Assembly: GCA_019321725.1 (NCBI GenBank)
Contig: CM033111.1
Coordinates: forward strand, 9,610,001 to 9,674,000
Origin: Paulownia fortunei
Taxonomy: Eukaryota; Streptophyta; Magnoliopsida; Lamiales; Paulowniaceae
Direction of reading: 5' to 3'
Length of the DNA: 64,000 nt
Part shown: piece after piece, positions 11,915-61,029 of the stretch
Layout of the letters: each line of letters opens with the position of its first letter
How positions within the stretch are numbered: position 1 is the first letter of the stretch
Notes under the pieces: generated by a model
The model's database searches: none
Seen by the model: only the letters and a program-made list of their open reading frames with translations
What the model was told of the DNA's origin: nothing
Made by a program: the position numbers and the translations under genes

Positions 11915-12787
11915 TTGAATTTACAATATTTTTATTCAATACTTTGCAACTTTTTTTATTTTTTTTGTTTTTTTTTTTTTTTTTTTAAACTCCCTTACAC
12001 TTATCTTCTATTCCAATTTAATTTTTTTTTGTAAGTTTACCTTGTCAATGGAATGTCTCTTAAACTCCAAATCATTTTTAGAACAAGGGTAAGATAATAG
12101 TGTATTTAGGCTAAGTAAGAAAATATGGTTACCATATAAAAAGGCTTATTTATTGAAAGACTTAAAGTAGCTTACTATGGGGATGTTCTCTTGGAACATC
12201 ACATAGGAAACAAGTTGATTTGTCCATGGTGCTAGAAAGTTTAACGCCTTTATTATTTTTCAAGTGGTGCTCAATCAATTGTTCATCTCGATAGACCAAA
12301 CGGAAAAGTTTTAACAATCAACCCCTGTTTATCAAAAATCCAACTGATGATTAAAGCGAGGGCATAAAAACTACTTATTTTGATATGCTTGTCTCCACAC
12401 CGAATAACATAACTATTTGTGCAAAAATATTTGAGTATAATTATCATAAAAATATATTATCAAAGAATAACATCAAGGTCGAAAACAAAACCCATCATCA
12501 TTCACAACCACATCATTCATGCATCATTGAATTTGGAAAAACAACTACAACTTAAAGATAATTGATGATTCACAAACTTTTTGTTAAAAACTTCATAAAT
12601 ATGCCATATTATGTGAAAAAAAATTAGGAATACATCTCAAAAGTTAAAGTTACTCTTTACTCTGTCACACTTTCTCATGGTTTCAACTTACCTAAAAGAA
12701 AAAACAAGCTTGAATTTTTTTTCCTATTGTTTTTCTAAAAAAAACTAGTAAAGCACACATTGAACACACAAGACATGATATCAACTA

Positions 12788-12832
12788 TCCCCTCCCCAAA
12801 CCTAATCAAAACATTGTCTCCAATATCAAAAA
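12788..12832 (-). other. Conserved purine-rich tract downstream of LOG (E4)
   Basis: On the minus strand this reads ATTGGAGACAATGTTTTGATT followed by AGGTTTGGGGAGGGG. The same tract lies at the same place in E3 (43008-43050) and in altered form in E2 (35986-36015). A GGGGACAATGT...GTTGGGGG block after the last ORF is a recurring feature of Athila-type elements in my general knowledge of the group. It marks the end of the coding part of the element. Confidence 0.6.
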
Positions 12833-12957
12833 TAGATAGGAAAGTAAAGTTTAGAAGATATTACCTGAAATGTGACTTATTAAAAAATAAAGCTAAAACA
12901 ACACAATATGCACGCTATTAGTTAAAACCATTAAGGATAAATTTCACATACTGAAAG

Positions 12958-13590
12958 TCAAGTTCATTTTGCATTTTCGACCATTGTCCCTGTTAGACCA
13001 ATCCACACAAGCCAAGACTGGATTAGGTTTTGGCATATATACTAGAAGTTGATCAATTAGTTGGTCAGGTGTTGGAACAGAAATGAGAATTCATCTCACA
13101 GATGATGAGATAAAACCTTTTTCCAAAGCATGATCTACAAAAGATAGCAAACCATCAAAGAAGCCATTAACGTTAAGAATACCTATAGGTTTCTGGTGAA
13201 TGTTGAGTTATATCCAAAAGACAACTTGGAATAACTCTTTTAATGTACCAAAACCACTAGGTAGGGTGATGAATGCATCCATATTGTTTAACATGTTAGG
13301 CATTCTTTCCTAAATATGTGATACTTTTAGTTCATCTCCGATAATCATACCTGTGATACTCTGTATTGTTAAAGGTTTTGAAATAATTTCTAAGACTTGG
13401 ACTCCTCCTATATGAGAAAACGTAGCAACATTCTCCATTAACCCCAGTCTGCCTTCCCTATACACTAAATGAATTTTTGTTTGCTAGAGTTCTACTAAGA
13501 TTATTGGCTAGCTCTATAAACTCACAATTTTTTCCTGGATTGGTTCCACAAAAGACATAAATATATAGATCTTGTGTGCGGAAGAGACTT
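12958..13590 (-). pseudogene. LOG-like: LOG-like cytokinin-activating enzyme, retrotransposon-borne copy in E4
   Basis: LOG enzymes release active cytokinin bases from cytokinin riboside 5'-monophosphates. The minus-strand translation follows the family from the N-terminal YVFCGTNPGK block through the region before the active site (MPNMLNN) to the catalytic-loop motif, here PSGFGTLKE instead of PGGxGTxxE, and on through a C-terminal part. All parts are contiguous without introns, although plant LOG genes normally have several. In-frame stops occur after the N-terminal 60 or so residues and just before MPNMLNN, and frames shift, so it is dead. It retains the bases before MPNMLNN that are deleted in the E3 copy, so the two copies decayed independently. 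It sits between the extra Cys-rich ORF and the purine tract, in sense with pol, as in E3. Confidence 0.85.
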
Positions 13591-13824
13591 CCATTTTTTT
13601 TCTCTTTTTTATTTTGAAAGTGAGTTGTACAAAAATAGAGCAAGTACGTTGCTATTTATTGAAGTGTGAACATGGAATGTATTTACTACACATCTTTTTT
13701 TTTATTAGGAAGGTTGAAAATGAGGACATAAAATTTGAAAATGAGCTACTTACGCATGAATATACATGTAGTTGTAACTGTGGCTTATATATTCATCTGG
13801 TTTTACATCCAGTAATGGCTTAAA

Positions 13825-14420
13825 CTCCCTCTATAGGTTAAGGATATGATTTCTATATTCATCCCAGAAGTGTATTTATAAATCAAAAATTACACAATGC
13901 ATTAATCCATAATAATGTGTCGCAAGAGTCCATAGAATGTCATCTAGAAACTCACTCAATCCATCCATTATTAATTAAATTTTATCTTCTTGATTTTTAG
14001 AAACTATTCCTAAGGAAGACACTTTATATAGCAAGTCCATCAAGCACATTTGGGGCAAGTTTGGATTTTTTTTCGCCCTTCGTTTTTTTGAACATGTGCT
14101 TTTACCTAAGCGAGACATGTATCTAGTAAACAAATTTGAAAACTCACATATTACTCTTGCCTTTGCTTCAATTATCCATCGTATATTTTCTAAGATGCCC
14201 TTGTGCGTAAAGAATTTTAATCTTTCAATTCTGGTTTTATAAATTTTTAAAATTGTATTTTTAGGAAGAAAAGAAAATCACTTCTTGAGAGTTAGAAGGA
14301 CGTTATCTATTTTGAAAAGAATAAGAAAAGAGAATGAGAGCAATTTTGTACAAAGATTTCAGTTGTTTGATAAATTGATAAGTTTAACTTCTATAACCAT
14401 GGAGTATAGTTATCCGCCAC
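13825..14420 (-). pseudogene. Extra ORF upstream of LOG in E4 (Cys-rich protein-like)
   Basis: Homologous along its length to the minus-strand ORF at 44040-44596 in E3. The translation can be followed in pieces: an N-terminal LTLKK block, an IYKTRIERL block, a TRYMSRLGKS block, then a basic KKRRAKK run that is intact here but split by a stop in E3. The Cys cluster seen in E3 is damaged in this copy, and later stops interrupt the C-terminal half. It precedes LOG in the same orientation. I do not recognise the family with certainty; see the E3 entry. Confidence 0.55.
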
Positions 14421-14559
14421 TTAACTAGGAAAAGAAAAAAAACTAAAAGAAATAAACCTTACAAAACAAACAAAGTTAGAGAAAATATATATATATATAC
14501 ACACACATAATAAGGGTTAGAAAGAAAAATAATTTCCTCTTTTGAAAATTGACTCTCTA

Positions 14560-15640
14560 GAAACGGTTTGAGTTTTGTCCATTTACTTTGAATACATTAC
14601 AATTTCTAGGATTTTCAATGTCAATTGTCTCATAAGAATATACTTCTTTTACAACAAAATGATCTCTCCACCTTTATCTCAAATTTTTAGGAAATAAATG
14701 TAATTGAGAATTAAAAAGCAAAGCCTTTTGTCCAACTTCAAATATTTTTCTTAAAATTTTATAATCATGAAATTATTTGATTCTTACTTTATGAATTTTA
14801 AAATTCTCATATGCATCATTTCTCAATTCTTCAAGTTCATTGATTTGCAATTTGCGTAATATTGAAACTTTATCAAGGTTGAAGTTAAACCTTTTGGTTG
14901 CCTAATAAGCTTTATGTTCAAGTTCAATAGATAAATGACAAGGTTTTCCATAAATTATCCTATAAGGAGACATACCTAGTGATGTTTTGAAAATAGTTCT
15001 ATACGACCAAAGTGTATCAGTAAGTCAAAGAGACCAATTTTTGCAATTGGGTTAACTGTCTTTTTCAAAATTTATTTTATCTCTCTATTTGTAAGTTCAA
15101 TTTGTCCATTTATTTTAGGGTGATAAGGGGTGCAACTTTATATATGATTTCATATTTTCTCATTAAAGTTTCAAAAACTTTGTTATGAAAATATTTTCCC
15201 CCATCACATATAATGGATCAAAAAATTTTAAATCAACTTAAAATATTTTCTTTCAAAAAATTTATCACTATTTTGTGATTGTTGTTTCGATAGGGAATTG
15301 CCTCGATCCATTTTGAGACATAATCTATGATGACGATATGTAAATAAAATCAAATGATAAAAATGATCCCATGAAATCAATACCCAAATGGTCGATGGGG
15401 TGTAAAGGCATCATGTTTCGCTTTGAAATGAATAATAATTTGTAACAATTTTCATAATTTTGTAGAAAGTGTAAGTGTCTTTGAAAAGAGTTGGCCAATA
15501 AAATCCACATTGTAAAATCTTTGCAGTAGTTTTCTTTACCGAAAAGTGACCATTACATGCTCTTGATTGAAAAAAATTAAGAATATTACCTTACTCATTG
15601 TTTGACACGCATCTCTGAAAAATTTGATCAGGATAATTTT
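14560..15640 (-). pseudogene. Integrase remnant of E4
   Basis: Minus-strand fragments match the E3 integrase: the C-terminal [13 protein letters not shown] region (about 14880-14980), the HPQ-type core near 15100, HPIDHLGIDFMG (near 15400), which contains the first catalytic Asp region, and the zinc-binding C-x-x-C area near 15450-15480. Frames are broken many times. An integrase of this type inserts element DNA into the chromosome; this one cannot be functional. Confidence 0.75.
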
Positions 15641-15789
15641 TGAATAGAGATAGATCATCCCAATAAAAGTTTTTCACCTCAATCAAAAACTTCTTTTTAT
15701 TTTGAAAATTCAAATGCAGTGACATCTTTTCTGTCACAAGAAAATTAACAATGTCAGCAATCTAAGGTAAAATAAAAATATTGAATAGT

Positions 15790-16255
15790 TTTTCATCAGG
15801 AAAAGTGTCATTAATGGACGTGGTTTGAAATGAGTTATCACAAACAAGTTTCGACAAATGATCAACCACCATATTTTCTACTCCTTTCTCATCTCGAATA
15901 GTAATGTTAAATTCCTAAAGTAAGAGAATCTACCTAATTAGTCTAGGTTTGGCATCTTTTATTGACAAAAGATATTTCAAAACTGCATGATAACTAAAAA
16001 CAACAACTGGTGAGTCAATAAGATAAGATCTAAATTTGTCTAATGCAAAAACTACAGTAAGTAGTTCTTTTCAATAGTTGAATAATTAAATTGAGCACTA
16101 TTCAATGTTTTACTTGCATAGTAAATGACTTATGATTTCTTATTTTTTCTTTGTCCTAAGACAGCTCCAATAGCATATCACTGACATCACATATTATTTC
16201 AAAAAATAAAGTCCAATCGGGAGGCTAGATGATTGGAGCGGACGTAAGCATGCTT
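15790..16255 (-). pseudogene. RNase H remnant of E4
   Basis: Matches the E3 RNase H region (46270-46584) at DNA level on the minus strand, including the ADHLSRL-equivalent segment near 15860. It is frame-disrupted. Its upstream edge is the RT deletion junction at 16252-16256, so RNase H is joined directly to the end of the protease-linker region. Confidence 0.75.
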
Positions 16256-16880
16256 TCAAAACAAGTTTCCAGAGGATCAAAGGAATTAGTGATAGTAAAA
16301 TATTCTTGAACAAGTTTCTCAATTGAATCTACTTTGTGTACTTCAACATTTTCTATAGGTTGCTCACAAAAATTAAACACATTTAGTTCCAAAGTCATAT
16401 TTCCAACAGATAACTTCAAAATACCATTCCTACAATTAATCAAAGTATTTGAAGTTGCAAGAAAAGAAAAACCCAAAATGCTAGGAATCTATGTATGTGT
16501 ATGTGTAATAGGTTGTGTGTTCAAAATAATGAAATCGACTGAAAAGTAAAACTTATTAATTTATACCAACACATTTTCTACTATTTCTTTTGGAACTTTA
16601 ATTGAAAAGTCCACTAGTTGGAGTACAATGGAAGTTGTTTTAAGTTCTCCCAAACCTAACTGTTCATAAACTGGGAAAGGTAGAAGATTTACACTAACAC
16701 CAAGATCAAGCAAAGCACACTCTATTCTAGTGTTCCCTATTGTACATGAAATGGTTGGACAACCTAAATCTTTGTATATGGGATGAGTGAATTGTTGAAT
16801 GATTGAACTAACACTTTCAGTTAAAAATATCTTCTTTTGTATATTATTTTTTATTTTGATTGTACACAAAACTTTCCAAA
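16256..16880 (-). pseudogene. Retropepsin (protease) remnant of E4
   Basis: Two minus-strand frames, 16561-16869 and 16225-16476, cover the aspartic protease and the following linker. The first has TISCTIGN followed by ALLDLGVSVNLLPF, so the catalytic Asp of the D-L-G-A/V-S motif is present. The second has a GFSFLATSNTLINCRNGIL block, equivalent to ILGRPFLAT in functional proteases. A break lies between them at about 16500-16560. The paralogous E3 copy has lost the catalytic Asp, so this decayed copy keeps an ancestral residue. Confidence 0.75.
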
Positions 16881-17490
16881 ATTTAGCATAAGTTGGAACT
16901 TACTTTATTGAATCCAATAATGAAATATTAATCTCGACCTGTTTAAAAAATTCAAATATTTTAGAATTTGGGTTTAATTTTGGATTTAATTTTGGATTCG
17001 ACTATAACCCTTAATGAAAAGGAGCTAGAGGTGAGTAGTTTTCTTTTTCAATATTTTCAAACTCACCTTCATTAAACTTACCTTCATCGTCAACACTATT
17101 TTCATTCTTCATTTCAAAAGGTAGATTAGGAATTTTCTTCTTGGGATGAATAGTCTTGTCAACAACTTTTTCATTTCAAAGAGTTATGATCAAATTAGCC
17201 TCCTTGACTGATTTTTTACCTGAAGAAAAAATATGACACTGAGTAGAAGGATTAAGTTCAGGTTGGCCAGAAAATTTAAATTTTTCACGACTAAGCAAAG
17301 AAGCTGTTAGTGTTAAAAGTGTGCTTTTTGATCTCATTGATGGCTTGTGAAGTCTGGTTATTGATATTTGTTTGTCCATACATAAACGCTTGCAAAGTCT
17401 TCTCAAGAAAGTTCGGTGGCTTTTGTGAATGTAGTGATTGGGCACGGTTATCATCGCGCCAACTAAAATTGGGATGGTTTCTCCATTGTA
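16881..17490 (-). pseudogene. Gag C-terminal remnant of E4
   Basis: Minus-strand sequence equivalent to the linker after the zinc knuckle in E3 gag: a NHPNFSWRDDNRAQ block (near 17460), the QTNINNQT block (near 17370) and the STQCH block. Frames at 17176-17454 and 17291-17518 each hold part of it, so at least one frameshift separates them. The similarity ends at about 17490, where an inverted gag segment begins. Confidence 0.75.
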
Positions 17491-18098
17491 GATTCTTAAA
17501 GAGATAAAGTAAAAACATTGCTTAACTTTTTAAAACATAAGTCAGTTGACACATGGCAAGAAATGCAAGCTGAATTTTTGAAAAAATTCTTTCCAATTCG
17601 TAAAACTAATGCTTTGAAAAGATAAATCCAGATTTTTTCTCAAAATTCTAATGAAGTTTTCTTTCAATATTGGGAAAGATTTAAATACTTGTTGAATTCG
17701 TGCCTATATTATAGTTTTGAAAAATAGCATTTAATTGTTTTTTATATGAAAGTTTAACTCCCGAAACAAAATAGTTTGTTGAAATTATGTATATGTAAGT
17801 TTTAGAATATAGAGAATAAAAAGGCTTTTAAATGTATTAATGACATTTGCTTGTGTTAGAATGTTTAAGTATTCATTGGTGAAGTATCTCACAAGTTCAC
17901 AAATGCTACAAATTTCTTTATCTTTGTAAATCTAATTTTATTTATTTTTTTAAGTTCCATGGCCTCAACTTTTCTTGTTAAACTAGCAATCATAGTATTT
18001 AAATCATTTTCTTGACTAAAATATTATTTTTCTTTATTACTGTTAGCAAGACTAGATATTCTAGGGCTTCATTAAATTCTTTATCAAGATACTCACTT
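17490..18098. pseudogene. Rearranged gag segment of E4 (inverted piece then direct piece)
   Basis: From 17490 to about 17775 the gag core reads on the plus strand (DTWQEMQAEFLKKFF and FSQNSNEVFFQYWERF are visible), opposite to the rest of E4. From about 17775 to 18098 the zinc-knuckle region returns to the minus strand, matching 49108-49480 of E3. Relative to E3 order A-B-C the arrangement is A, inverted C, B. This needs at least two rearrangement steps or a complex template switch. The segment ends at 18098, where inverted repeat R3 starts. Confidence 0.75.
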
Positions 18099-18361: not shown

Positions 18362-18388
18362 TGTGACAACCTCCCAATAATATGTATA

Positions 18389-18421
<33 letters not shown>

Positions 18422-31439: not shown

Positions 31440-32035
31440 TTTGAATTAATGAACAGTCTGCTCAATTGATTAATGGTGAATGCCTTAAATAAATTTGGAG
31501 CCCGGGAATTGGACCTATAGCAACTATGGAGCAACACCTTAAAAAATTTAGGAGCTTGGGAATTGGACCTCAAGCATCTAAAGGTAAATGCTTGAAAAAT
31601 ATTTGGAGCTCGGGAATCCGACCTCTAGAAACTAAGGGCGAATTCTTTAAATAAATCAGAGGCTTAAGAATCCAATCTCCAATAATTAATGTCTTAAATA
31701 AATTAGGAGCTTGAGAATCTAACCTCCAGCAATTAAAGATGAATTCCTTAAAAAAATTAAGAGCTTAAGAATTCGACTTCGAGCAACTAAAGGTGAATGC
31801 CTTAAATGAATTAGGAGCTCAGGATTCTGACCTACAATAATTAATGGCGAATGCCTTAAATAAATTAGGAGCTCAAGAATTCGACTTCCAGCAACTAAAG
31901 GCCAATGCCTTAAATGAATTTGGAGTTCCAGAATCTGACTTGTATCAACTAAGGCTTTAAATGAATTAGGAGCTTGGAAATCCGACATCTAGCAACTAAG
32001 GACGATTGTCTTAAAATTAGGGCCTTGGGAATCTA
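31440..32035 (+). repeat. 54 bp minisatellite, array 1
   Basis: About eleven imperfect units of 54 bp with a core of GGAGCTCGAGAATCCGACCT, then CCAGCAACTAAAGGTGAATG and CCTTAAATGAATTA. The period is a multiple of three. The plus frame of the consensus is open (repeating A-L-N-E-L-G-A-R-E-S-D-L-Q-Q-L-K-V-N), and two minus frames are also open, which gives an 89-codon minus ORF at 31719-31988 that is probably chance. Individual units carry stops. Related arrays lie at 53114-53510 and 55440-55860, each downstream of F-box unit sequence. Confidence 0.85.
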
Positions 32036-39412: not shown

Positions 39413-39417
39413 GCTCT
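39413..39417. other. Left target site duplication of E3 (GCTCT)
   Basis: GCTCT directly precedes the E3 LTR and is repeated exactly at 51875-51879 after the other LTR. Confidence 0.9.
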
Positions 39418-41395
39418 TGCTACAACTTTAAGGTTGCAAACCCAAGTGCAAGTTGTAGTAAGTAATAAATTTCTCGTGAGTCCGAGGTCGATCCACAGGG
39501 AAATTATTTGAAGAATTCAAGTTTATATTTATAAAAAGATGGAGTTTATGTGAATCAAAAATATATGAACAATTAATGTATGATGTAGTTAAAGAAAAAA
39601 CCGAAGTAATAAAAGTACTAAGGATTAGGGATCCACTCTTGAGTTTTGGATAGATAAATGGTTATTTATTCTTTTTACCTCTATTAATTGCCACAATTGG
39701 AATCCATACATAATGAAGGTTCCAATGGGAAGATATTATCAAGTAACTCATGCAATAAGGTAATCATGATATTGTCTTACTATTGCAAATTATCTTTCAA
39801 CGCCAACACTTATTTATGGGATCAAGCATTTATATACTCTTTCGTCAACAACAAATCAAGGTTTCACATTAGCAGTCGGTGGGGTAAAATCGTACAATAA
39901 GCTAAATGAACCCAAGTATTTGTTGTGCCATTGGAGATACATAAATCAAGAATCACCACAAAAATAAGTAGGGTTTAGATCAAAAATAATAATAATAATA
40001 CAACATACTTAAATAATTTCTACCCTTATAACCATTTATCTTCCTCCATCAAGAGATTCACCCTTTTTCCTCAGCAAAATAAAATTTAGAAAGACATAAT
40101 AAAAGTAACAAAGACTAAAAATATAAGAGAAACTAGAGAATGCATTTTTATTACTACTAGAAAACTTACAATACTAGAAAACATACAAACTAGATAACTT
40201 AGCCTAAAGAAACCCTCTACCCCCCTCCTCTTACAAGCTGAATACATGGCCTATTTATAGTACTTGGAGTAAGCTAGAGGCCAAACAAATAATGGAGGGG
40301 TTAATCAAGTGGTATGCTAGTTGCCAAGAGTTGGTAAGTTGTTACACAAATTTCTCAACCACTGAATTGAATTACATTTTTCGGCTAGATACAGCCAGAG
40401 TTTGAAGATACGTAAAGAATAAACATTATAGATCTTTCAACGCTGATATATTTTCATATATCTTTTGTCAAATTTGGCGATCGGATGAAGGAGATATGGT
40501 CAAATTACCGAGTCATGTCCAAGAGCCGCCCTGTAACATCAGCAGCAACTTGCAGCCTATGGTTTTACCATTTCAATACATTTTCACACCATCTTATCTT
40601 CAGCAAACTTGTTTATTTACTCTTGGATATAACATATCCGAATTTCAGACCAAAATAAATTTGGGCTCAAGATATATAACCGAATTGGTAAAATAAGTCA
40701 ATACTGGGCTGAACTCTGATCTGAATTTTGGTGATCCATTTTGTGTAATTACTTGGACGAATTTTCTGCTATCATCAAAACTGAATTGGCTAAGCCTCCA
40801 ACATAAAAGTTGTACCTCTATCTCTTGGCTTTCAAATGAAACAAACTTCAGGTCCATAGAGCTTTTGATCATGAAGTTATGCTCAAATTACAAAAACTGC
40901 ACAAGTCTGGAAATATGCTTCCATTTATTCCCTAATACAAAACATTAATAAAACAAGAATATTAACAAGAATAAAGCAAGAAAAATATAAAGGATTTGAT
41001 ATAAAAATATGTCAAAATATGATATTCGTCATAATTCCAGCTCAAATTTGGCCCAACTAGGCCCATTAAGAATGGGGCAATGCCATGCCACATTAGTTTA
41101 CATAATACAATTCATGAAATTAAATCAATTTAAAGATTCCCACTTTAAATGAAGACCATCCACTAATTAATTGTTCATGCGAGCTCCTCTCTACTTTAAT
41201 CAGCATTGTTGAACTCCTTTCAACTCTGAACTCCTTCAGATGGTTGATGCAGTCTTCTTGCGAGAACTTCTACCTTCTTCTCCTGAAGAATGTATATGAG
41301 TAATCAGCACTACTCGACTCCCTCCAACTTTGAATTCCTTCAAATGGCTGATGCGATCTTCTCTAGAAGACCTTTCACCTTCTTCTCCTGTATCA
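39418..41395 (-). repeat. E3 3' LTR with about 369 extra bases
   Basis: Matches the 5' LTR from 39418 to 41021. Then 41022-41390 is present only here, in place of CACTT in the 5' LTR. The last bases TATCA (41391-41395) are again shared and lie next to the polypurine tract. The extra segment contains a two-copy repeat (about 41208-41275 and 41325-41390) built around AACTCCTTCAGATGG and CTTCTTCTCCTG. Confidence 0.9.
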
Positions 41396-43158: not shown

Positions 43159-43787
43159 TCACAGACTGAGAGTCAAATTCAATTTGCGTTTTCGACCATT
43201 GTTCCTATTGGACCAATCCACATTGGCCAAGACTGGATCAGGTTTTGGCACATATGCTAGAAGTTGATCAATCAGCTGGTCAGGTGTTGGAGCAGAAATG
43301 ATGATTCTTCTCGCAGAAGTTGAAATAAACCCTTTTTTCGCAGCATGATCTACAAAAGATAGCAAACCATCATAAAAACCATTAACATTAAGAATACCTA
43401 TAGGTTTTTGGTGAATGTTGAGTTGTGCCCAAAGAACAATTTGGAATAATTCTTCCAGTGTACCAAAATCGCCAGGTAGAATGATGAATGCATCCGCATT
43501 GTTTAACATATTAGGCATTCTGTCCCGAATGTGTGACACTTATCTCCAATGGTCATACCTGTGATATTCTGTACTGTTAAACATTTTGGGATAACTCCCA
43601 AAACTTTAACACCTCCTACATAAGCAGAAATGGCAACACTCCCCATTAACCCCAAACTGCATCCCCCATACACTAAATGAATTTTTCTTTCTGCTAAAGT
43701 TCTACCAAGATTATTGGCTGCCCCTATAAACTCACCATTTTTTCCTAGATTGGATCCACAAAAAACACAAATAGAATTAAATTTGCT

Positions 43788-43790
<3 letters not shown>
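43159..43790 (-). pseudogene. LOG-like: LOG-like cytokinin riboside 5'-monophosphate phosphoribohydrolase carried by E3
   Basis: LOG enzymes convert inactive cytokinin nucleotides directly to active free bases. The minus-strand translation is nearly complete: an N-terminal ICVFCGSNLGKNGEF, then LAERKIHLVYGGCSLGLMGS, VKVLGVIPK, and (after a frameshift) DRMPNMLNNADAFIILPGDF and GTLEELFQIVLWAQL, then [36 protein letters not shown] and a basic tail ending at 43159. The Y-G-G-G and P-G-G-x-G-T-x-x-E loops bind nucleotide; here they are YGGC and PGDFGTLEE. About 8 bases are missing before the DRMPNMLNN part (still present in E4), causing the shift. No introns interrupt it, unlike plant LOG genes, so it derives from mRNA. 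It is in sense with pol. No clear start codon: the N-terminus abuts an A30 tract. Confidence 0.9.

Positions 43791-43820
<30 letters not shown>
43791..43820 (-). other. A30 tract, possible fossil poly(A) tail
   Basis: Thirty consecutive A on the minus strand directly before the LOG N-terminal coding sequence. A minus-strand AATAAA lies at 43860-43865, 39 nt upstream of it. In E4 the same position is A-rich but degenerate (about 13590-13620), also preceded by AATAAA. This is what the 3' end of a polyadenylated transcript of the preceding ORF would look like. Confidence 0.5.
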
Positions 43821-43821
<1 letters not shown>

Positions 43822-44039
43822 AAAATAAGTTGTGCAAAAATAGAGTGAGTACGGTGATATTTATTGAGTTGTGAACAGGGAATACATTTATTGCATGTCT
43901 TTTTCTTTTGTCAAAAAGGTTAAAATAAGGACACATACGAAATTTAAAAATTACCTACTACCACGTGTATGTACATATAGTTGTGATTGTGGCTCACATC
44001 TTCCTCTGGTTTTACGTCCAGTAACGACTTAAACGCCCT

Positions 44040-44596
44040 CTATGGGTCGAGGATATGCTTCCCATCCAGTTTTCTTATAAACTGGCAAACAGGGTCTTTT
44101 AATGTCAGATTCTCAAGACTATAAAGCTCATATTCATTTCGAAAACGATCCCATAAATCAAGAATTGCACGTTGTACCAATCCACATGAATGCGTCTCAA
44201 GAGTCAATATAATGTGATCTAAAGACTCCTTACTCAGTCCATCCATAATGAATTTAAGTTTATCTTCTCGATTTTTAGAGACCATTCCTAAAGAACGACA
44301 CTTTATGTTGCAAGTCCATCTAGCACAAATATGACAAACTTTCATTTTTTTCGCCCTTCATTTTTTTGAATATGTGCTTTTACCAAAACCAGACATGTAT
44401 CTAGTAAGCAAATCTGGAAACTCATGTGAAAACTCACCTGCCCTTACCTTTGCTTCAATTAACCATCGTATGTCCTCCGGAATGCCCTTGTGCATAAGCA
44501 TCCTCAATCTTTCAATCCTAATTTTATAAATTTTCAAAATTGCATTTTTAGGAAAAAAGGAAATCGCTTCTTGAGAGTTAGAAATATGTCACCCAT
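44040..44596 (-). pseudogene. Extra ORF between integrase and LOG in E3 (Cys-rich, basic)
   Basis: Starting from an ATG at 44596, minus-strand homology with E4 runs about 180 codons to a TAG at 44040-44042. It is broken by a frameshift near 44540 and a TGA at 44358-44360, which is intact sequence in E4. In order: a basic LTLKK N-terminus, a helical IYKIRIERLRMLMHKGI part, a basic K-K-x-R-A-K-K run, a Cys cluster C-x2-C-x4-C-x3-C, then an acidic, helical C-terminal half with DHIILTLETHS and LDLWDRFRNEY. A basic run followed at once by a Cys cluster recalls the layout of cysteine-rich nucleic-acid-binding proteins of carlavirus-like plant viruses, but this is only a layout resemblance and the C-terminal half is unexplained. 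Function unknown. It lies in sense between pol and LOG. Confidence 0.5.
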
Positions 44597-44793: not shown

Positions 44794-45906
44794 CTAATCA
44801 TAACAAGGGTTAGAAAGAAAAAGAATTTCCTCTTGTGAAAATTGATTTTCTAGAAATGGTTTAACTCTTTGTCCATTTAATTTGAATATGTTACCATTTC
44901 TAGGATTTTCATTGTCAATTGCCCATAAGGATATACTTTTTTTACAACAAAAGGACCACTCCACCTTGATCTCAATTTCCAGGAAACAAATGCAATCGAG
45001 AATTATAAAGCAAAACCTTTTGACCAACCTCAAATATTTTTCTTGAAATTTTATTATCATGAAAATCTTTGATTCTTACTTTATAAATTTTAGAATTCTC
45101 ATATGCATCATTTCTCAGTTCTTCAAGTTCATTGATTTGCAATTTGCGCAATTTTGAAGCTTCATCAAGGTTGAAGTTAAACATTTTGATTGCCCAATAA
45201 GCTTTATGTTCAAGTTCAACAGGTAAATGACAAGGTTTTCCATAAACTATCCTATAAGGAGACATGCCTAATGATGTTTTGAAAGTAGTTCTATATGCCA
45301 AAGTGTATCGGTAAGTCTAAGAGACCAATCTTTACGGTTTGGGTTAACTGTTTTCTCCAAAATTTATTTTATCTCCCTATTTGCAAGTTCAACTTGTCCA
45401 TTTGTCTGAGGATGATAAGGGGTTGCAACTTTATGTATGATTCCATATTTCTTCATTAAAGTTCCGAAAACTTTGTTACAAAAATGTTTTCCCCCATCTG
45501 ATAATAGATCTAGGAATTCCAAATCGACTTAAAATATTTTCTTTCAAAAATTTTATCACTATTTTGTGATCATTGTTTCGACAAGAAATTGCCTCGATCC
45601 ATTTTAAACATAATCTATGGCACAATAAAGATATAATACCAAAACATAATGGCAAATATGTAAAGAAAACCAAATGATAATGGAAATGGCCCAATAAAAT
45701 CAATAGCCAAGTAAAGAATATCATAGGATAGGGTGTAGGGGCATCATATTTCTCTTTGAAAGGGACCCTAACTTTTGACAATTTTCACAACTTTTGCAGA
45801 AAGTGTAAGTATCTTTGAAAAGAGTTGGCCAATAAAATCCACATTGCAAGATTTTTGCAGTAGTTTTCTTTACAGAAAATGACCACCACATGCTTCTGAA
45901 TGACAA
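44794..45906 (-). pseudogene. E3 integrase
   Basis: Minus-strand pieces in several frames: 45721-45906 with the zinc-binding region (TAKILQCGFYWPTLFKD then CKSCENCQKLG), 45476-45781 with a broken catalytic core, a stretch at 45300-45476 encoding the [12 protein letters not shown] motif with the catalytic Glu, and 44972-45301 with [20 protein letters not shown], then [14 protein letters not shown] and [17 protein letters not shown]. The 44794-45060 frame holds the end with IFKLNGQRVKPFLENQF, typical of the Athila/Tat clade. At least four breaks are present, so no functional integrase can be made. Confidence 0.9.
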
Positions 45907-45922
45907 AATTTGACAATATTAC

Positions 45923-46584
45923 CTATCTCATTGTCAGGCACACATCTTCGAAAGATTTGATCCGGATAATATTTGAATAGGTATGGATCATCCCAATAAA
46001 AATTTTAACCTCAGTCAAAAACTTGTTTTTATCTTGAGAGTTCCAATGTGATGGCATCTTTCCTGTTATAAGAAAATTAACAATGTCAGCAAACCAAGGT
46101 AAAATAGAAACGTTAAATAATTGTTCATCAGGGAAAGTGTCATTAATAGGTGTGGTTTGAAATGAGTCATCACAAACAAGTCTCGACAAATGATCAGCCA
46201 CTACATTCTCTACCCCCTTTTTATCTCGAATAGTAACATTAAATTCCTGGAGTAAGAGAATCCACCTAATCAGTCTTGGTTTAGCATCTTTTTTGACAAA
46301 AGATATTTCAAAGCTGCATGATCACTGAAAACAACAATTGGTGAGCCAACAAGATAAGATCGAAATTTATCCAATGCAAAAACTACAACAAGTAATTCTT
46401 TTTCAGTTGTTGTATAATTCAATTGAGCACCATTTAAAGTTTTACTTGCATAGTAAATAACATATGGTTTTTTATCTTTTCTTTGTCCCAAGACAGCTCC
46501 AACAGCATAATCACTAGCATCACACATTATTTCAAAAGGTAAAGTCCAATCTGGAGGCTGCATGATTGGAGCAGACGTAAGCAT
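45923..46584 (-). pseudogene. E3 RNase H and connection to integrase
   Basis: 46270-46584 encodes a Ty3/gypsy RNase H: PFEIMCDASDYAVGAVLGQR (first catalytic Asp), YYASKTLNGAQLNYTTTEKELLV (catalytic Glu), [20 protein letters not shown] (third acidic residue). A frame break follows; 45923-46201 starts with ADHLSRL, the usual end of the domain, and a linker toward integrase. A frame shift near 46600 separates it from RT. Confidence 0.9.
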
Positions 46585-47705
46585 GCTTTTAAGCTTAACA
46601 AAAGCATTTTCACAGTTTTCAGTCCATTCAAAAATAGTGTCTTTTTTAGAAGATTACACAAAGGTTTAGATATTATACTAAAATCTTTGATAAATCTTCT
46701 ATAAAAACCAGCATGTCCTAAAAATGATCTAATCTCCTTCACAGTCTTTGGTGTTGGCAAATTGGCAATTAACTCAATTTTAGATTTATCAACCTCAATA
46801 CCTTCTGATGATATAATGTGTCCAAGAACAATACCAGTTGTTACCATGAAGTGACATTTCTCCCAATTGAGCACAAGATTCTTTTCTTCACACCTGATCA
46901 AAACCTTTTCTAAATTAGATAAGCAATCATCAAATGAATTATCAAAAATAGAAAAATCATCCATGAAGACTTCAAGAAAACATTCAACCATGTCACTAAA
47001 AATACTAAGCATGCATCGTTGGAATGTAGCTGGTGCATTACATAATCCAAAAGGCATCCTTCGATATGCAAAAGTACCAAAAGGACATGTAAAAGTTGTT
47101 TTCTCTTGATCTTCAAGTGCAATTGCAATTTGGTTATATCCAGAATATCCATCTAAAAAGCAATAAAATTCGTGTCCTGCAACTCTTTCTAAAATTTGAT
47201 CCATGAAAGGTAATGGAAAATGATCTTTTCTAGTGACTGAGTTGAGTTTTCTATAGTCAATGCACATTCGCCAACCAATAACAGTCCTAGTTGGAATTAA
47301 TTCATCATTCTCATTCTTGACTACAGTAACTCCAAATTTCTTAGGTATAACTTGAGTCGGACTTACCCATTTGCTATCAGAAATAGAATAAATGATTCCA
47401 TTATCTAAGAGTTTAATGACTTCATTTCTTACTACTTCTTTCATATTAGGATTTAGCCTTCGTTGCATTTCTCTAGATGGTTTAGCATTTTCCTCTAGAT
47501 AGATGTTATGTGTGCAAATGAAAGGATTAATACCTTTAATATCAGCAATGGTCCATCCTAAAGCATTCTTATGCATTTTCAGAGTTTCGATCAACTTACC
47601 TTCTTGATATGCATCGAGTTTGGAAGAAATTATTACTAGAAAAGTTTCATTCTCACCCAAGAAAGAGTATTTCAAATTAACTGGCAAAGGTTTCAATTCA
47701 ACCAC
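46527..47705 (-). CDS. E3 reverse transcriptase (open frame of 392 codons)
   Basis: The longest well-kept pol domain in the window. Residues about 80-110 give the NPNMKEVVRNEVIKLLDNGI lead-in, 113-121 KWVSPTQVI, 147-153 MCIDYRK, 184-193 LDGYSGYNQI (first catalytic Asp), 218-226 PFGLCNAPA and 247-250 FMDD, the Y-x-D-D equivalent with both catalytic Asp. GIVLGHIISSEGIEVDKSKI and IRSFLGHAGFYRRFIKDF follow as in all Ty3/gypsy RTs. The last 30-40 codons after about residue 355 are out of frame with RNase H, so the frame ends in nonsense residues. F-M-D-D and the sequence around it fit the Athila/Tat clade. It would need suppression of upstream breaks to be made. Confidence 0.92.
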   Translation of the reverse strand: MVELKPLPVNLKYSFLGENETFLVIISSKLDAYQEGKLIETLKMHKNALGWTIADIKGINPFICTHNIYLEENAKPSREMQRRLNPNMKEVVRNEVIKLLDNGIIYSISDSKWVSPTQVIPKKFGVTVVKNENDELIPTRTVIGWRMCIDYRKLNSVTRKDHFPLPFMDQILERVAGHEFYCFLDGYSGYNQIAIALEDQEKTTFTCPFGTFAYRRMPFGLCNAPATFQRCMLSIFSDMVECFLEVFMDDFSIFDNSFDDCLSNLEKVLIRCEEKNLVLNWEKCHFMVTTGIVLGHIISSEGIEVDKSKIELIANLPTPKTVKEIRSFLGHAGFYRRFIKDFSIISKPLCNLLKKTLFLNGLKTVKMLLLSLKACLRLLQSCSLQIGLYLLK

Positions 47706-47734
47706 AGGAACTTTAATACTTGATGGAATAGATT

Positions 47735-48163
47735 TTACTGTTGATGATGAAAGTTCTTCGAACCTTGGCTTCCAAAATATTTTTCTTGTACCTGCAAAAA
47801 TTCAGAGATAGTATTAGTGTGTTCCTTTTTATAAATACTTTCACTTTCAAAACAAGTCTCCAAAGAATCTGAAGAGTTAGTAGTAGTAAAGTATTCATGA
47901 ACAAGTTCTTCAATTGAATCCACTTCATGTACTTCGACATCTTCTGCAGGTTGCATACAAACATTAAACACATTTAGTTCCAAAGTCATATTTCCAAATG
48001 ATAACTTCAAAATACCATTTCTACAATTGATCAAAGCATTTGAAGTTGCAAGAAAAGGACGACCCAAAATGATAGGAATTTGTGTATGTGTTTGTGCAAC
48101 AGGCTCTGTGTCCAAAACAATGAAATCAACTGGAAAGTAAAACTTATCAATTTGTACCAACAC
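47735..48163 (-). pseudogene. E3 protease C-terminal part and linker
   Basis: The frame begins MLVQIDKFYFPVDFIVLDTE and contains IPIILGRPFLATSNALINCR, the conserved flap and I-L-G-R-P-F-L-A-T block of gypsy retropepsins. A linker with an acidic EVHEVDSIEELVHEYF stretch follows toward RT. A small break at 48163-48175 separates it from the gag-protease frame. Confidence 0.85.
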
Positions 48164-48171
48164 ATCTTCTA

Positions 48172-49581
48172 CTATTCCTTTGGAACTTTAATCAAACGGT
48201 CAGCTAATTGGAGTACAACAGAAGTTGTTTTAAGTTCTCCCAAACCTAACTGTTCATAAACTGAGAAAGGTAGAAGATTTACACTAGCACCAAGAAACAA
48301 GCAAGCACGCTCTATTCTAGTGTTTCCTATGATACATGAAATGGTTGGACAACCTGGATCTTTGTACTTGGGTAGAGTGAATTGTTGAATGATTGAACTA
48401 ACACTTTCAGTTAAAAATGCCTTCTTTTGTACATGATGTTTTCTTTTGATTGTACACAAATCTTTCAAAAATTTGGCATAAGGTGGAACTTGCTTGATTG
48501 CATCCAATAATGGAATATTAATCTTGACTTGTTTAAAAATTTCAAAAATTTCAGCATTTGAGTTCAATTTCTGAGTTGCTTGCAATCTTTGAGGAAAGGG
48601 TGCTGGAGGTAAATATTTTTCTTTTTCTTCATTTTCACGCTTACCTTCTTCAAACTTACCTTTATCGTCAAGACTATTTCCATTTTTCATTTCTGGAGGT
48701 GGATTAGAAACTTTCTCCTTGGGATGAATAGTCTTGTCAACAACTTTTCCATTCCGAAGAGTTGTAACTGAATTAGCCTCCTTGACTGCATTTTCACCTG
48801 AAGAAGAAACATGACACTGAGTAGAAGGATTAGGTTGAGGTTGAGCAGGAAATTTACCTTTTTCATGAGTACACAAAGAAGTTGTCAGTGTTGAAAGTGT
48901 GCTTCTGATCTCATTGATAACTTGTAAAGTCTGATTATTGATATTTGTTTGTTCATGCATAAATGCTTGCAAAGTCTCCTCAATGGATTTTGTATGTGGA
49001 GGTGGATAAGAATGAAAGTTTTGTGGTTTTTGTGAATGCGGTGGTTGGGCACGGTTATCATCTCGCCAACTAAAATTGGGATGATTTCTCCATTGTGGAT
49101 TGTAAGTTTCAGAATATGGAGAATGGAAAGGCTTTTTGAATGTGTTCATAAAATTTGCTTGTACTGGAAGGTTTGGACATTCATTGGTGGAGTGCCCCAA
49201 AAGTTCACAATTGCTACAAACTTCTTCCTCTTGCACAGATTTGATTTCCTTTACTTTCTTAAGTTCCATGGCTTCAACTTTTCTTGTTAAACTAGCAAGT
49301 TTAGCATTTAGATCATCTTCTTGACTAAGGTAATATTTTCCTTTATTACTATTAGCAAGATTAGATCTAATAGAACCTTCGGAAGAATTAACACTATGCC
49401 ATGATTGAGAGTTTTCTGCCAAATGATCTAGGTATTCTAGGGCTTCATCAGGTTCCTTATCAAGAAACTCACCATTACACATTGTTTCAACAAATTGTTT
49501 TGTTTCAGGAGTTAAACCTTCATAAAAGAAACTAATTAAGCGCCATTTTTCAAAACCATGATGTGGGCATGAATTCAACAA
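48172..49581 (-). CDS. E3 gag C-terminal half with zinc knuckle and protease N-terminus (469-codon frame)
   Basis: In order: a capsid C-terminal part with ISFFYEGLTPETKQFVETMC (residues 17-36) and EPDEALEYLDHLA; a CCHC zinc knuckle, residues 122-135 (C-x2-C-x4-H-x4-C); a long Gln/Asn/Pro-rich linker with NHPNFSWRDDN; a basic and acidic region; then the protease start with CPTISCIIGN near residue 410. The active site reads CLFLGASVNLLPF, where family members, and the E4 copy, have L-D-L-G-A/V-S, so the catalytic Asp is lost through small changes at 48290-48300. The frame stops after KVPKE, before the rest of the protease. The upstream part of gag is in another frame. Confidence 0.9.
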   Translation of the reverse strand: MLNSCPHHGFEKWRLISFFYEGLTPETKQFVETMCNGEFLDKEPDEALEYLDHLAENSQSWHSVNSSEGSIRSNLANSNKGKYYLSQEDDLNAKLASLTRKVEAMELKKVKEIKSVQEEEVCSNCELLGHSTNECPNLPVQANFMNTFKKPFHSPYSETYNPQWRNHPNFSWRDDNRAQPPHSQKPQNFHSYPPPHTKSIEETLQAFMHEQTNINNQTLQVINEIRSTLSTLTTSLCTHEKGKFPAQPQPNPSTQCHVSSSGENAVKEANSVTTLRNGKVVDKTIHPKEKVSNPPPEMKNGNSLDDKGKFEEGKRENEEKEKYLPPAPFPQRLQATQKLNSNAEIFEIFKQVKINIPLLDAIKQVPPYAKFLKDLCTIKRKHHVQKKAFLTESVSSIIQQFTLPKYKDPGCPTISCIIGNTRIERACLFLGASVNLLPFSVYEQLGLGELKTTSVVLQLADRLIKVPKE

Positions 49582-50062
49582 ATTTTAAATCTTTCCCAAC
49601 ATTGAAAGAAAACTTCATTCGAATTTTGAGAAAAATTTTGAATTTGTCTTTTCAAAGCATTAGTTTTATGAGTTGGAAAGAATTTTTTCAAGAATTCAGC
49701 TTGCATTTCTTGCCAAGTACCAATTGACCTAGGTTTTAAAGAATTAAGCCAATTTTTTGCTTTATCTTTTAAAGAGAAAGGAAATAATTTGAGCTTAACA
49801 ATCTCATTTGTGCAAGTTTGATCATCAAAAGTGGCACATACTTTATCAAATTCTTTTAAATGCAAGTAAGGACTTTCAGAGTCTAAACCATGGAAATTAG
49901 GAAGAAAGTAAGGATCATACCTGACTTGAATCGAAAATTATTTGCATTTAGAGGAAAAATGAAACAAGAAGGAGAAGAATTTCGAGGAGGTTGCAAGTAA
50001 TAACGCATGGTACGCACCTGTTGATTCTCATTTTCATCCTGGACACTTTCATTTTCAGCCAT
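49575..50062 (-). pseudogene. E3 gag N-terminal half
   Basis: The probable start is the ATG at 50062 (MAENESVQDENENQQVRTMR). The reading frame runs to about 49925 (NANNF), is broken there, and continues at 49575-49865 with LHLKEFDKVCATFDDQ and then LKDKAKNWLNSLKP, GTWQEMQAEFLKKFFPTHK and FSQNSNEVFFQCWERF, the retrotransposon gag core. A stop then separates it from the 469-codon frame. Gag forms the virus-like particle. Two breaks make it non-functional here. Confidence 0.88.
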
Positions 50063-50238: not shown

Positions 50239-50256
50239 TCCCCGGCAACGGCGCCA
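50239..50256 (-). other. E3 primer binding site (tRNA-Asp type)
   Basis: The minus strand reads TGGCGCCGTTGCCGGGGA, separated from the LTR end (50263) by AGTTTT. This sequence is the usual Asp-tRNA-type primer site of Athila/Tat elements and looks unmutated. Confidence 0.88.
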
Positions 50257-50262
50257 AAAACT

Positions 50263-51874
50263 TGCTACAACTTTAAGGTTGCAAACCCAAGTGCAGGTTG
50301 TAGTAAGTAATAAATTTCTCGTGAGTCCGAGGTCGATCCACAGGGAAGTTATTTGAAGAATTCAAGTTTATATTTATAAAAAGATGGAGTTTATGTGAAT
50401 CAAAAATATATGAACAATTAATGTATGATGTAGTTAAAGAAAAAACCGAAGTAATAAAAGTACTGAGGATTAGGGATCCACTCTTGAGTTTTGGATAGAT
50501 AAATGGTTATTTATTCTTTTTACCTCTATTAATTGCCACAATTGGAATCCATACATAATGAAGGTTCCAATGGGAAGATATTATCAAGTAACTCATGCAA
50601 TAAGGTAATCATGATATTGTCTTACTATTGCAAATTATCTCTCAACGCCAACACTTATTTATGGGATCAAGCATTTATATACTCTTTCGTCAACAACAAA
50701 TCAAGGTTTCACATTAGCAGTTGGTGGGGTAAAACCGTACAATAAGCTAAATGAACCCAAGTATTTGTTGTGCCATTGGAGATACATAAATCAAGAATCA
50801 CCACAAAAATAAGTAGGGTTTAGATCAAAAAATAATAATAATACAACATACTTAAATAATTTCTACCCTTATAACCATTTATCTTCCTCCATCAAGAGAT
50901 TCACCCTTTTTCCTCAGCAAAATAAAATTTAGAAAGACATAATAAAAGTAACAAAGACTAAAAATATAAGAGAAACTAGAGAATGCATTTTTATTACTAC
51001 TAGAAAACTTACAATACTAGAAAACATACAAACTAGATAACTTAGCCTAAAGAAACCCTCTACTCCCCTCCTCTTACAAGCTGAATACATGGCCTATTTA
51101 TAGTACTTGGAGTAAGCTAGAGGCCAAACAAATAATGGAGGGGTTAATCAAGTGGTATGCTAGTTGCCAAGAGTTGGTAAGTTGTTACACAAATTTCTCA
51201 ACCACTGAATTGAATTATATTTTTTGGTCAGATACAGCCAGAGTTTGAAGATACGTAAAGAATAAAAATTGTAGATCTTTCAACGCTGATATATTTTCAT
51301 ATATCTTTTGTCAAATTTGGCAATCGGATGAAGGAGATATGGTCAAATTACCGAGTCATGTCCAAGAGCCGCCCTGTAACATCAGCAGCAACTTGCAGCC
51401 TATGGTTTTACCATTTCAACACATTTTCACACCATCTTATCTTCAGCAAACTTGTTTATTTACCTCTTGGGTATAACATATCCGAATTTCAGACCAAAAT
51501 AAATTTGGGCTCAAGATATATAACCGAATTGGTAAAATAAGTCAATACTGGGCTGAACTCTGATTTGAATTTTGGTGATCCATTTTGTGTAATTACTTGG
51601 ATGAATTTTCTGCTATCATCAAGACTGAATTGGCTGAGCCTCCAACATAAAAGTTGTACCTCTATCTCTTGGCTTTCAAATGAAACAAACTTCAGGTCCA
51701 TAGAGCTTTTGATCATGAAGTTATGCTCAAATTACAAAAACTGCACAAGTCTAGAAACATGCTTCCATTTATTCCCTAACACAAAATATTAATAAAATAA
51801 GAATATTAACAAGAATAAAGCAAGAAAAGTATAAAGGATTTGATATAAAAATATGTCAAAATATGCACTTATCA
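50263..51874 (-). repeat. E3 5' LTR
   Basis: 1612 bp. On the minus strand it starts TGATAAGTGCATATTTTGAC and ends GTTGTAGCA. It matches 39418-41021 with only scattered substitutions and a few short indels. Confidence 0.93.
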
Positions 51875-52143
51875 GCTCTCATTGAACATTCAGTCTTGAA
51901 CTCTACCGCATGTACTTGTTTACTCTGTTTCTTTGGTTGTTGGAACATATGTTGGCTATTGGGTGAGTTTAAGTGCAGTATTACTTGATGAAACAAAATG
52001 TCTATTTCAAGGGAGTCTATTTAACTGAATGTTGAAATAGAATGAGATTTTCAGGGGAGTGTGATTCTATAGTATTTGTTTGAATGTCACTACACAGATA
52101 AGGTAAACCTAAGGTTTTGACCAAAAATGTCAAAGGGAGAGAT
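51875..52143 (+). other. E1 3' internal region with polypurine tract
   Basis: Continues the E1 sequence interrupted at 39417; its first five bases are the right GCTCT duplication of E3. No coding sequence. It ends with GTCAAAGGGAGAGAT, a purine tract directly before TTGTTAAG of the right LTR, as in Sirevirus and other Ty1/copia elements. Confidence 0.7.
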
Positions 52144-53113: not shown

Positions 53114-53510
53114 TGAGAAAGAGGCTTAGGAGCCGACTTCTAATACTATAGGCGAATGCCTTAAACTAATAGAGGCTCAAGAATCCGACCTCTAATAATA
53201 AAAGATGAATGCCTTAACCAAATCAGAAGCTTGAAAATCTGATCTCCAATAATTAAATGTGAATGCCATAAATAAATTAGGAGCTCAAGAATCCAACCTT
53301 CATCAATTAAAGTTGAATGCCTTAAATAAATTAAGAGCTCAATAATTCGACTTCCGACAACTAAAGATGAATGCCTTAAGTGAATTACAAACTTGAAAAT
53401 CTGACCTGCTAAAGCTCTAAATGAATTAAGAGCTTGGAAATTTGACCTCCAGCAACTAAAGGTGAATGCCTTAAGAACTAGGAGCTCGAGAATCTCGATA
53501 AAGGGTTAGG
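53114..53510 (+). repeat. 54 bp minisatellite, array 2
   Basis: About seven imperfect units with the same core as array 1 (GGAGCTCAAGAATCC and GAATGCCTTAAATAAATTA). Confidence 0.8.
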
Positions 53511-55439: not shown

Positions 55440-55860
55440 ATTCCTTAAATTAAGAATTTGAGAATTCGACCTCCAACAACTTAGGGCAAACATCTTAAAT
55501 AAATTAAAAGCTCAGAAATCTGACCTGTAGCAACTAAAGGTGAATTCGTTAAAAAGATAGGAGCTCATAAACCCAACCACCAGCGACTAAGAGTTAAAGC
55601 CTTAAATAAATTAGGACTTTGGGAATCCCACCTCCAGCAACTAAAGGTGAATTCCTTAAATAAATCAGAAGCTCGAGAATCCAATCTCCAAATATTAAAA
55701 TGTGAATTAAGTAAATAAGAGTATGAATTTGACCTCCAACACCAAAAGGTGAATGCCTTAAGTAAATCTGAGGCTCAAGAATTCAACCTCCAATACTAAA
55801 GGCGAATGCCTTAAACCAACATAGCCTTGGGAATCCAACCTTAAATCAGCTTTTATGGAC
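55440..55860 (+). repeat. 54 bp minisatellite, array 3
   Basis: About eight imperfect units, same core as arrays 1 and 2, more degenerate at the right end. Followed at about 55880 by inverted block Y'. Confidence 0.8.
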
Positions 55861-59804: not shown

Positions 59805-60830
59805 ATGTTGAATCTTACAAAGCTCGAATTTATTGCCCTTGATATTTCTGGCAATAATTACTTGGCATGGACACTTGATGCTGAAATCCATGTTGATGCT
59901 ATGAACCTTGGAGAAACAATAAAAGAAGAAAATGCAGCATCCTTATAGGATCGCGCAAAGGCAATTATATTCCTTCATCATCATCTCCATGAGGAATTAA
60001 AAACTGAATATCTGACAGTAAAAATCCATACGTCCTTTGGAAAAATTTGAAAGCAAGGTATGACCACCAAAAGACAATAATACTTTCTAAAGCTCGCTAT
60101 AATTGGATGCACTTGCGATTGCAAAATTTTAAAAGTGTAAGGGAGTATAATTCGATAATGTTTAAAATCACTTTTCAGTTAAAATTATGTGAAGAAAGTA
60201 TTACTGATGAAGACATTTTCTACTTTTCATCATTTTAGTATGCTCCTACAACAGCAGTATTGAGAGCGAGGTTTTAAAAAGTATTCCGAGTTGATATCAT
60301 GTCTTCTAGTTGTCGAATAAAATAATAAATTATTGATGAAAAATCATCAATCCCGCCCAACTGGATCAACGCCATTCCCTGAAATGAATACTGCAATTGT
60401 TAATAATTTTGGGCGTAGTCGATATCGAGGACATGGTTATAGTCGTGGTCATGGCTATAGCCGTGGTCGAGGTTATTATAATCAAAACTTTTTAAATTTC
60501 AAGAGAATTGTACCTCATCACCAGAAGTGGGAGAATAATGGGCCAAAACATGAAGAAAATAGATTGCAAAATAAAACTCTCAAAACTAATGAAAGCAATT
60601 GTCATAGATGTGGCATGAAAGGACATTGGAGACGTACTTGTCGTACATTTAAGCATCTTGTTGATCTATATCAGGCTTCACTGAAAGAAAAGGGAAAAGG
60701 TGTGGAGACAGACCTTATTGAACATTATACTCCAATGAATTTTATGCAATTGGATGTTGCAGATTTCTTTGAGAATTATAATGGAGATTTTGAAAATCTA
60801 AATGGCGATGAGAATATTAATATGGTTTGA
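59805..60830 (+). pseudogene. E5 gag
   Basis: Starts MLNLTKLEFIALDISGNNYL at 59805 and reads WTLDAEIHVDAMNLGETIKE; a TAG at 59946 interrupts. It resumes with RYDHQKTIILSKARYNWMHL and FKSVREYNSIMFKITFQLKL (the UBN2-type gag core), stops at 60236, and resumes at 60333 with MKNHQSRPTGSTPFPEMN, a Gly/Arg/Tyr repeat region (RGHGYSRG), and a CCHC zinc knuckle CHRCGMKGHWRRTC near residue 90 of that frame, followed by KHLVDLYQASLKEK. Gag assembles the particle and packages RNA through the knuckle. The knuckle is intact; the protein as a whole is not. Confidence 0.9.
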
Positions 60831-61029
60831 AAAGATGTCTCAACAATAAGTTATCCTTAATGTATTATTTTTGGTGTGTTTTTCTTTTTAGTATATGTTT
60901 TGAGATTTTCAGTGTGATTTTTGGTGTGTCTTATGTTCTATGTAATTTGAAAAAAAATATTTAGTAAGTTTTTCCTATATATTGATAAGAAATAAAGAAA
61001 TATATTTAGTATTTAATTCTCAATGCTTA

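Follow-up and report, generated by a model that had tools for sequence, protein, structure and literature searches.

Why an LTR retrotransposon should carry a gene of the LOG family, and what the encoded protein may do for its carrier, is the question raised by a locus in a 64-kb stretch of Paulownia fortunei DNA (the window, analysed at its full length). In this window, a minus-strand LTR retrotransposon, E3, was found, whose LTRs align over 39416-41021 and 50261-51865 with 98.4% identity (26 mismatches in 1604 aligned bases plus three gap positions). A perfect target site duplication, GCTCT, lies at 39413..39417 on the left and 51875..51879 on the right. From the LTR alignment and the duplication, the 5' LTR was placed at 50263..51874 (-); the 3' LTR spans 39418..41033 (-), with an approximate edge at 41033, where the ~12 outermost bases are unlike those of the other LTR. 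The primer binding site, TGGCGCCGTTGCCGGGGA (50239..50256, -), is presumably complementary to plant tRNA-Asp. At a substitution rate of 0.7-1.3e-8 per site per year, the LTR divergence gives an insertion age of ~0.6-1.2 million years.

Between the LTRs, a gag piece (49578..49937, -; Pfam Retrotrans_gag, 7.3e-17) is followed by the C-terminal part of gag, open for 470 codons (48175..49584, -), a protease region with only a weak RVP_2 match (47738..48187, -; E 0.089), a reverse transcriptase (RT; 46530..47801, -; RVT_1, 1.1e-28) and an RNase H (46273..46653, -; RT_RNaseH_2, 9.8e-36), the Pfam matches for gag, RT and RNase H all having one orientation. Three broken pieces at 44975..46321 (-) are labelled putative integrase from their position after RNase H and from what we take to be Athila integrase motifs; they gave no integrase match in Pfam. 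Two accessory genes then follow in sense between pol and the 3' LTR: ORF1 (44040..44596, -), which is carlavirus nucleic-acid-binding-like and has a frameshift and an in-frame stop in E3, and the LOG-derived ORF2 (43159..43790, -), which is also broken and includes a basic LxLxL-type tail and the stop codon. We class E3 as an Athila-like LTR retrotransposon that carries a pair of accessory genes in sense, and the first-pass annotation was right that the LOG lies in sense with gag-pol inside an LTR-bounded element. According to the available text on the Athila clade of OTA Ty3/gypsy elements (Neumann 2019, PMC6317226), E3 shares with that clade the order of gag, RT and RNase H and, beyond pol, an additional ORF before the 3' LTR, whereas the extra ORFs of E3 are a LOG and a carlavirus-like protein. 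A second (archaeal-type, Tat-like) RNase H was not recognised in the E3 pieces scanned, which are broken, nor did the E3 and ORF1 pieces scanned match the Pfam family of Athila ORF-1.

That ORF2 is a chance reading frame was ruled out by tblastn, in which a stop-free relative, P0001, matched E3 at 43790-43539 and 43539-43162 (-) with 95-97% identity (E 5e-113). The two pieces of the E3 gene, joined by X, also matched Pfam Lysine_decarbox (1.9e-32). In E3 itself the LOG is a pseudogene: a poly-A run has taken the place of its start, the frame is shifted by a short deletion, and PGG reads PGD. This long run occupies 43791-43830, and the E4 leader is also A-rich there. E4, the remains of a further element (11950..18057, -), retains an internal part with most of RT missing and part of the gag end inverted, and carries a second LOG copy with stops and frameshifts (12944..13562, -), where P0001 matched 13483-12947 (73%) and 13562-13455 (61%). 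Descent of E3 and E4 from one segmental duplication was ruled out by the 79-86% alignment identity of their internal parts, the lack of any match to the E3 LTR near E4, and the lack of any match between 2 kb of each E3 flank and 9500-20000. The second, separately decayed copy reported earlier is therefore upheld, and it is older than that of E3.

Several other features of the window were recorded. An LTR-like repeat lies beside E4 (7504-8197, 11182-11940, 18098-18342 and 21459-21814), in two direct copies and also as inverted fragments, an arrangement that suggests nested or rearranged insertions. Repeats with 54-base spacing are common to distant places (31441-31996, 53116-53462 and 55551-55710), and 60333-63846 (+) holds open pieces with zinc-knuckle gag-like and RT-like ORFs, which we take to resemble a copia-type element. 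An internal promoter before the accessory ORFs of E3 was also considered: CCTATAAAAG near 44690 reads TATAGAAG in E4, and no case was made for it; a sigma-70 promoter scan is uninformative for plant DNA.

Searches of the 509-Mb P. fortunei assembly showed that the gene is abundant. All 150 scored places matched, both with PF03641 (2486 first-look candidates) and with P0001 (4377 first-look candidates). The 150 scored rows of the P0001 search were 86 to 100% identical to the query, and by hand count 91 were stop-free in the matched range and 59 had at least one stop. A search with LOG3, aimed at exons of host LOG genes, gave 150 scored rows, all at 44-53% identity, which were taken as element copies. 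For linkage, 20 rows were picked by hand down the genome LOG list with ~9.6 kb each (one with 5.8 kb, at a contig end); these are best-scoring copies, among which decayed ones are under-represented. Upstream on the same strand, ORF1 was found in 19 of the 20, an integrase piece in 18 and RT in 15. Adjacency of pol and LOG is thus a recurrent arrangement in the source genome (18 of the 20 sampled copies have parts derived from pol on the same strand upstream), and the LOG and ORF1 have multiplied with the element family in this host. We call the E3 LOG intronless because the element ORF is contiguous and peanut LOG genes mostly have a 7-exon structure in the available text of PMC13257298. Of the earlier proposal that a LOG was captured and multiplied as hormone-activating cargo, what is borne out is that the LOG lacks introns and sits in an Athila-like element, between pol and the 3' LTR; the hormone-activating role is doubtful (see below).

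Relatives of the element LOG are not confined to Paulownia. A protein search, covered here by its best 120 of 1734 matches, returned 12 proteins with 91-95% identity, of which four are named P. fortunei, and next relatives at ~55-65% from Reevesia, Rehmannia, Orobanche, Diplodiscus, Xanthoceras and Populus, frequently present as numerous copies; a single cluster from Orobanche hederae stands for 244 sequences. Two further protein lists comprised the best 120 of 7990 and the best 120 of 7998. In two Xanthoceras gene models, P0013 and P0242, LOG modules are fused to a segment of the E3-type gag (63-65% identity over 41-43 residues), which lies in the C-terminal gag part given above. The available text of PMC9289625 describes a YgdH (LOG-family) domain inside LTR elements of Citrus sinensis, C. 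clementina and Populus trichocarpa and credits the finding of LOG-family domains in LTR elements to Steinbauerova 2011; a P. trichocarpa protein, P0079, falls in the same tree clade as E3. LOG capture by an LTR element is therefore not new, and the statement of the first-pass annotation that no case had been described does not hold. Besides PMC9289625, no literature linking LOG and retrotransposons was found. For relatives outside Paulownia other than the two Xanthoceras fusions and the cases in PMC9289625, we infer an element origin.

A tree was built from 92 proteins chosen for diversity from the protein lists. Its 65 element-like rows, with E3 and E4 among them, make up a single clade separate from the 26 host rows (support 100/90), and the separation persisted without the pocket and tail columns (48 element-like versus 19 host rows, 100/100). 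Two Xanthoceras proteins and P0275 branch first in the element clade; rows from Paulownia, Rehmannia and Orobanche group with E3 and E4, and those from Reevesia and from Diplodiscus each form their own clade. The one row named as Populus groups with rows that bear no species name. The phylogeny proposed earlier thus sets the element-like rows apart from host LOGs as sampled here, namely LOG1/3-type proteins and one LOG8. The simplest reading is one ancient capture followed by vertical descent, and other host LOG clades, such as LOG5 or LOG7, could be nearer. Judged from these proteins, the LOG part is common to several eudicot orders. Two LOG scans of IMG/VR viral contigs yielded no element relative. 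The only match, L001 (9998-10567), was rejected as an ordinary LOG, which we take to be of bacterial type; its contig presumably also encodes a chloride-channel-like protein.

We then compared the predicted pocket of 158 element-like proteins with that of 120 sampled host proteins of LOG1/3 type, using the numbering of PMC4979012. In the available text of that source, Arg99 and Glu122 are the catalytic residues, Met96, Lys100 and Glu121 form the adenine site, and Met96, His97, Lys100, Glu125 and Trp129 form the likely prenyl site. Among the element-like proteins, the catalytic residues are largely retained (R99 in 148, E122 in 154), as are T119 (155), E121 (151), W129 (142) and M96 (126), with H97 kept in 74. 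K100 is present in only 9 and replaced in 147 (by M in 67, I in 52 and L in 28), and E125 is present in 8 and replaced in 143 (by Q in 92 and H in 51), whereas both residues occur in 120/120 host LOG1/3-type proteins and also in LOG8. The nine K100 keepers comprise seven proteins of Xanthoceras together with P0275 and P0097, of which P0097 has Q125. When mapped onto the tree built without the trait columns, K100 requires two changes and E125 one. Further fixed-block sites differ as well; L118 of the LOG3 core, for example, is F in 150/150 crown proteins. The type-I LOG fold and PGGxGTxxE motif are present in the relatives, E3 itself reading PGD, and the structure model of an ORF2 relative shows a confident LOG fold that matches 2a33, the structure of Arabidopsis LOG3, at 51% identity, with TM scores of 0.96 (normalised by target length) and 0.77 (by query length). 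ORF2 relatives thus resemble plant cytokinin riboside 5'-monophosphate phosphoribohydrolases (PDB 2a33, 1ydh) in predicted fold, PGGxGT loop and catalytic Arg and Glu, and differ from them in being intronless, in mostly lacking the two residues, Lys and Glu, of the pocket proposed for cytokinin, and in their basic LxLxL-type tail. Because K100 and E125 are so widely replaced, ordinary cytokinin activation by the element LOG appears doubtful, and with it the hormone-activating enzyme that had been proposed as cargo. Sequence alone does not decide LOG function, since plant LOGs in which the known residues are conserved can still differ in activity (PMC11593424, available text).

The tail sets the element proteins apart in another way. 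A basic run and an LxLxL end, as in KKRKLDLTLRL, occur together in 122/158 element-like proteins; by a simple pattern that allows I for L, the L/I-x-L/I-x-L/I end is present in 128/158 and the basic run in 143/158, compared with 0/120 and 1/120, respectively, in host LOG proteins. The full tail is missing from the Orobanche and Xanthoceras relatives. On the tree without trait columns the tail requires four changes, and in the predicted structure it is modelled with low confidence and forms no secondary structure. LxLxL is an EAR repression motif in the available text of PMC6479872, and the tail may serve nuclear import and TOPLESS binding. The earlier description of the cargo was accurate as to the LOG and overlooked both this tail and the carlavirus-type ORF directly upstream.

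ORF1 comprises 185 codons between the integrase piece and the LOG; among 40 loci searched, 11 have it open, corresponding to 8 distinct places. Its sequence SKKRRAKK followed by CHICARWTCNTKC has the layout of the carlavirus cysteine-rich nucleic-acid-binding proteins (Carla_C4 and Viral_NABP; PF01623 / PF05515), that is, a basic stretch and then a cysteine cluster. Carla_C4 was matched in 6/6 open copies scanned with 25.1-27.2 bits against a curated cut-off of 20.9 (E 1.3e-5 and 1.8e-5 in two copies, 3.7e-6 to 1.4e-5 in four more), whereas Viral_NABP stayed below its cut-off (18.4-20.4 bits versus 23; E 0.0006-0.002). The viral match spans mainly 34 residues, and ORF1 is unlike the carlavirus proteins in its length of 185 aa, its extra C-terminal half and its place within a retrotransposon. 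Nine shuffled and one reversed ORF1 matched neither family (0/10 each); the only matches they gave were two weak ones to something unrelated (E 0.03 and 0.077). The two halves of E3's own broken ORF1, searched separately, had no Pfam match, and the ORF1 structure model was unusable (pLDDT 48.8). In the Paulownia genome, Carla_C4 gave 23 matches over the cut-off among 150 scored of 485 candidates, compared with none in 14 control genomes, all prokaryotes; no ORF1 relative was found in the viral contigs. A listed LOG copy lies 461-674 bases downstream of 7 of these 23 places, and the other 16, by eye, have no neighbouring LOG copy among the matches listed. At G000:C15:15148061-15148213 and similar places, the Carla_C4 match covers 18-72 of 91, compared with 35-71 in the copies scanned; more diverged versions of ORF1 may exist. 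By its profile matches, ORF1 encodes a protein like the cysteine-rich nucleic-acid-binding proteins of carlaviruses, which are reported to suppress silencing and to regulate transcription in the nucleus.

Together, ORF1 and ORF2 look like a single accessory module whose two proteins are probably both nuclear. We consider it an evenly balanced proposition that in the E3 family ORF1 and the altered LOG form a host-manipulation module in which ORF2 would not, or not mainly, be a cytokinin activator. In this proposal, ORF2 would be a nucleus-targeted nucleotide N-glycosidase with an altered choice of base or, alternatively, a LOG fold reused for recruiting a TOPLESS-type co-repressor; in either role cytokinin activation would be lost or secondary. 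ORF1, by analogy with the carlavirus proteins, would bind nucleic acid and disturb host silencing or transcription, and the two together would promote expression and copying of the element. Expression of both downstream ORFs would need splicing or an internal promoter. In its full form, a plant LTR retrotransposon lineage with a two-gene nuclear module that combines a carlavirus-type protein interfering with silencing or transcription and a LOG shifted to another nucleotide or to TOPLESS recruitment, the proposal is more tentative, and we consider it less likely than not.

It is possible, though in our view unlikely, that the element LOG still activates cytokinin, and that more active cytokinin would enhance the division of meristem or germline precursors and hence transmission of the element. 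The LOG fold modelled on 2a33, the mostly kept catalytic residues and PGGxGT loop, and the retention of both K100 and E125 in seven Xanthoceras relatives and P0275 are consistent with this reading; the replacement of these two residues in most of the 158 proteins argues against it, as does the finding, in the available text of PMC4979012, that alanine changes of AMP-site residues almost completely abolish activity, S19A excepted. The view that the Paulownia copies are an amplified host LOG family merely often situated near retroelements is very improbable. It could draw on one sampled copy (L031) without any element part within 5.5 kb upstream, but the same order and similar spacing to ORF1 and the integrase piece in nearly all other copies, the LTRs and target duplication around E3 and the absence of introns speak against it, and the same-strand linkage in the 20 sampled copies brings it close to refuted.

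Finally, the LOG and ORF1 could be passengers, captured once, carried along and decaying without function, which we regard as quite unlikely. Selection signals within Paulownia are weak and would suit such passengers: changes between the E3 and E4 LOG copies show no codon-position bias (41/209, 29/210 and 37/208; p 0.27), and stops occur in the 59 of 150 scored genome rows counted above. Within Paulownia, 26 distinct copies of the LOG gave a pN/pS of 0.47, in a set whose search favours intact copies and from which 8 of 40 loci had been removed because their matches were incomplete or gapped. Counts were N21/S15 for shared and N65/S31 for single changes, with one stop among the latter; significance without transition bias (p 0.011 and 0.028) was lost when transition bias was included (0.10 and 0.39). 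In 16 copies of ORF1, no N/S constraint was detected (shared N13/S5, single N52/S16). Against passengers stands the recurrence of the tail, as well as a median pairwise divergence that, among 33 copies (two of 35 dropped), is lower in ORF1 (0.027) than in its flanks (0.073 before it, 0.036 in the leader), with 0.035 in the LOG and 0.046 downstream. Moreover, full-length open frames with mostly retained catalytic residues are still seen in plants from several orders whose proteins are 55-69% identical, which would be unexpected after long neutral copying. This persistence between plants appears to make a stronger case for function than the signals internal to Paulownia.

What appears to be new here is the altered pocket, the basic LxLxL-type tail and the carlavirus-type ORF between pol and the LOG, none of which is mentioned in the available text of PMC9289625; our literature search covered LOG and retrotransposons. 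The same source reports Phalaenopsis Gypsy elements with a 2-ODD m6A demethylase ORF, which resemble E3 in having a captured enzyme as an extra ORF but carry another enzyme, reported active in vitro, whereas ORF2 of the E3 family is known from sequence. In the present family, relatives can be recognised for both extra ORFs, open copies of each exist in a sequenced tree, and predictions can be made at the level of single residues. To our knowledge, the extra ORFs of plant LTR elements mostly have no known function. If the proposal is true, retrotransposons and plant RNA viruses would have accessory proteins in common, and retrotransposons would have repurposed a hormone enzyme. Genome annotations that name numerous 'LOG' genes in plants of this kind may for the most part be counting a mobile element.
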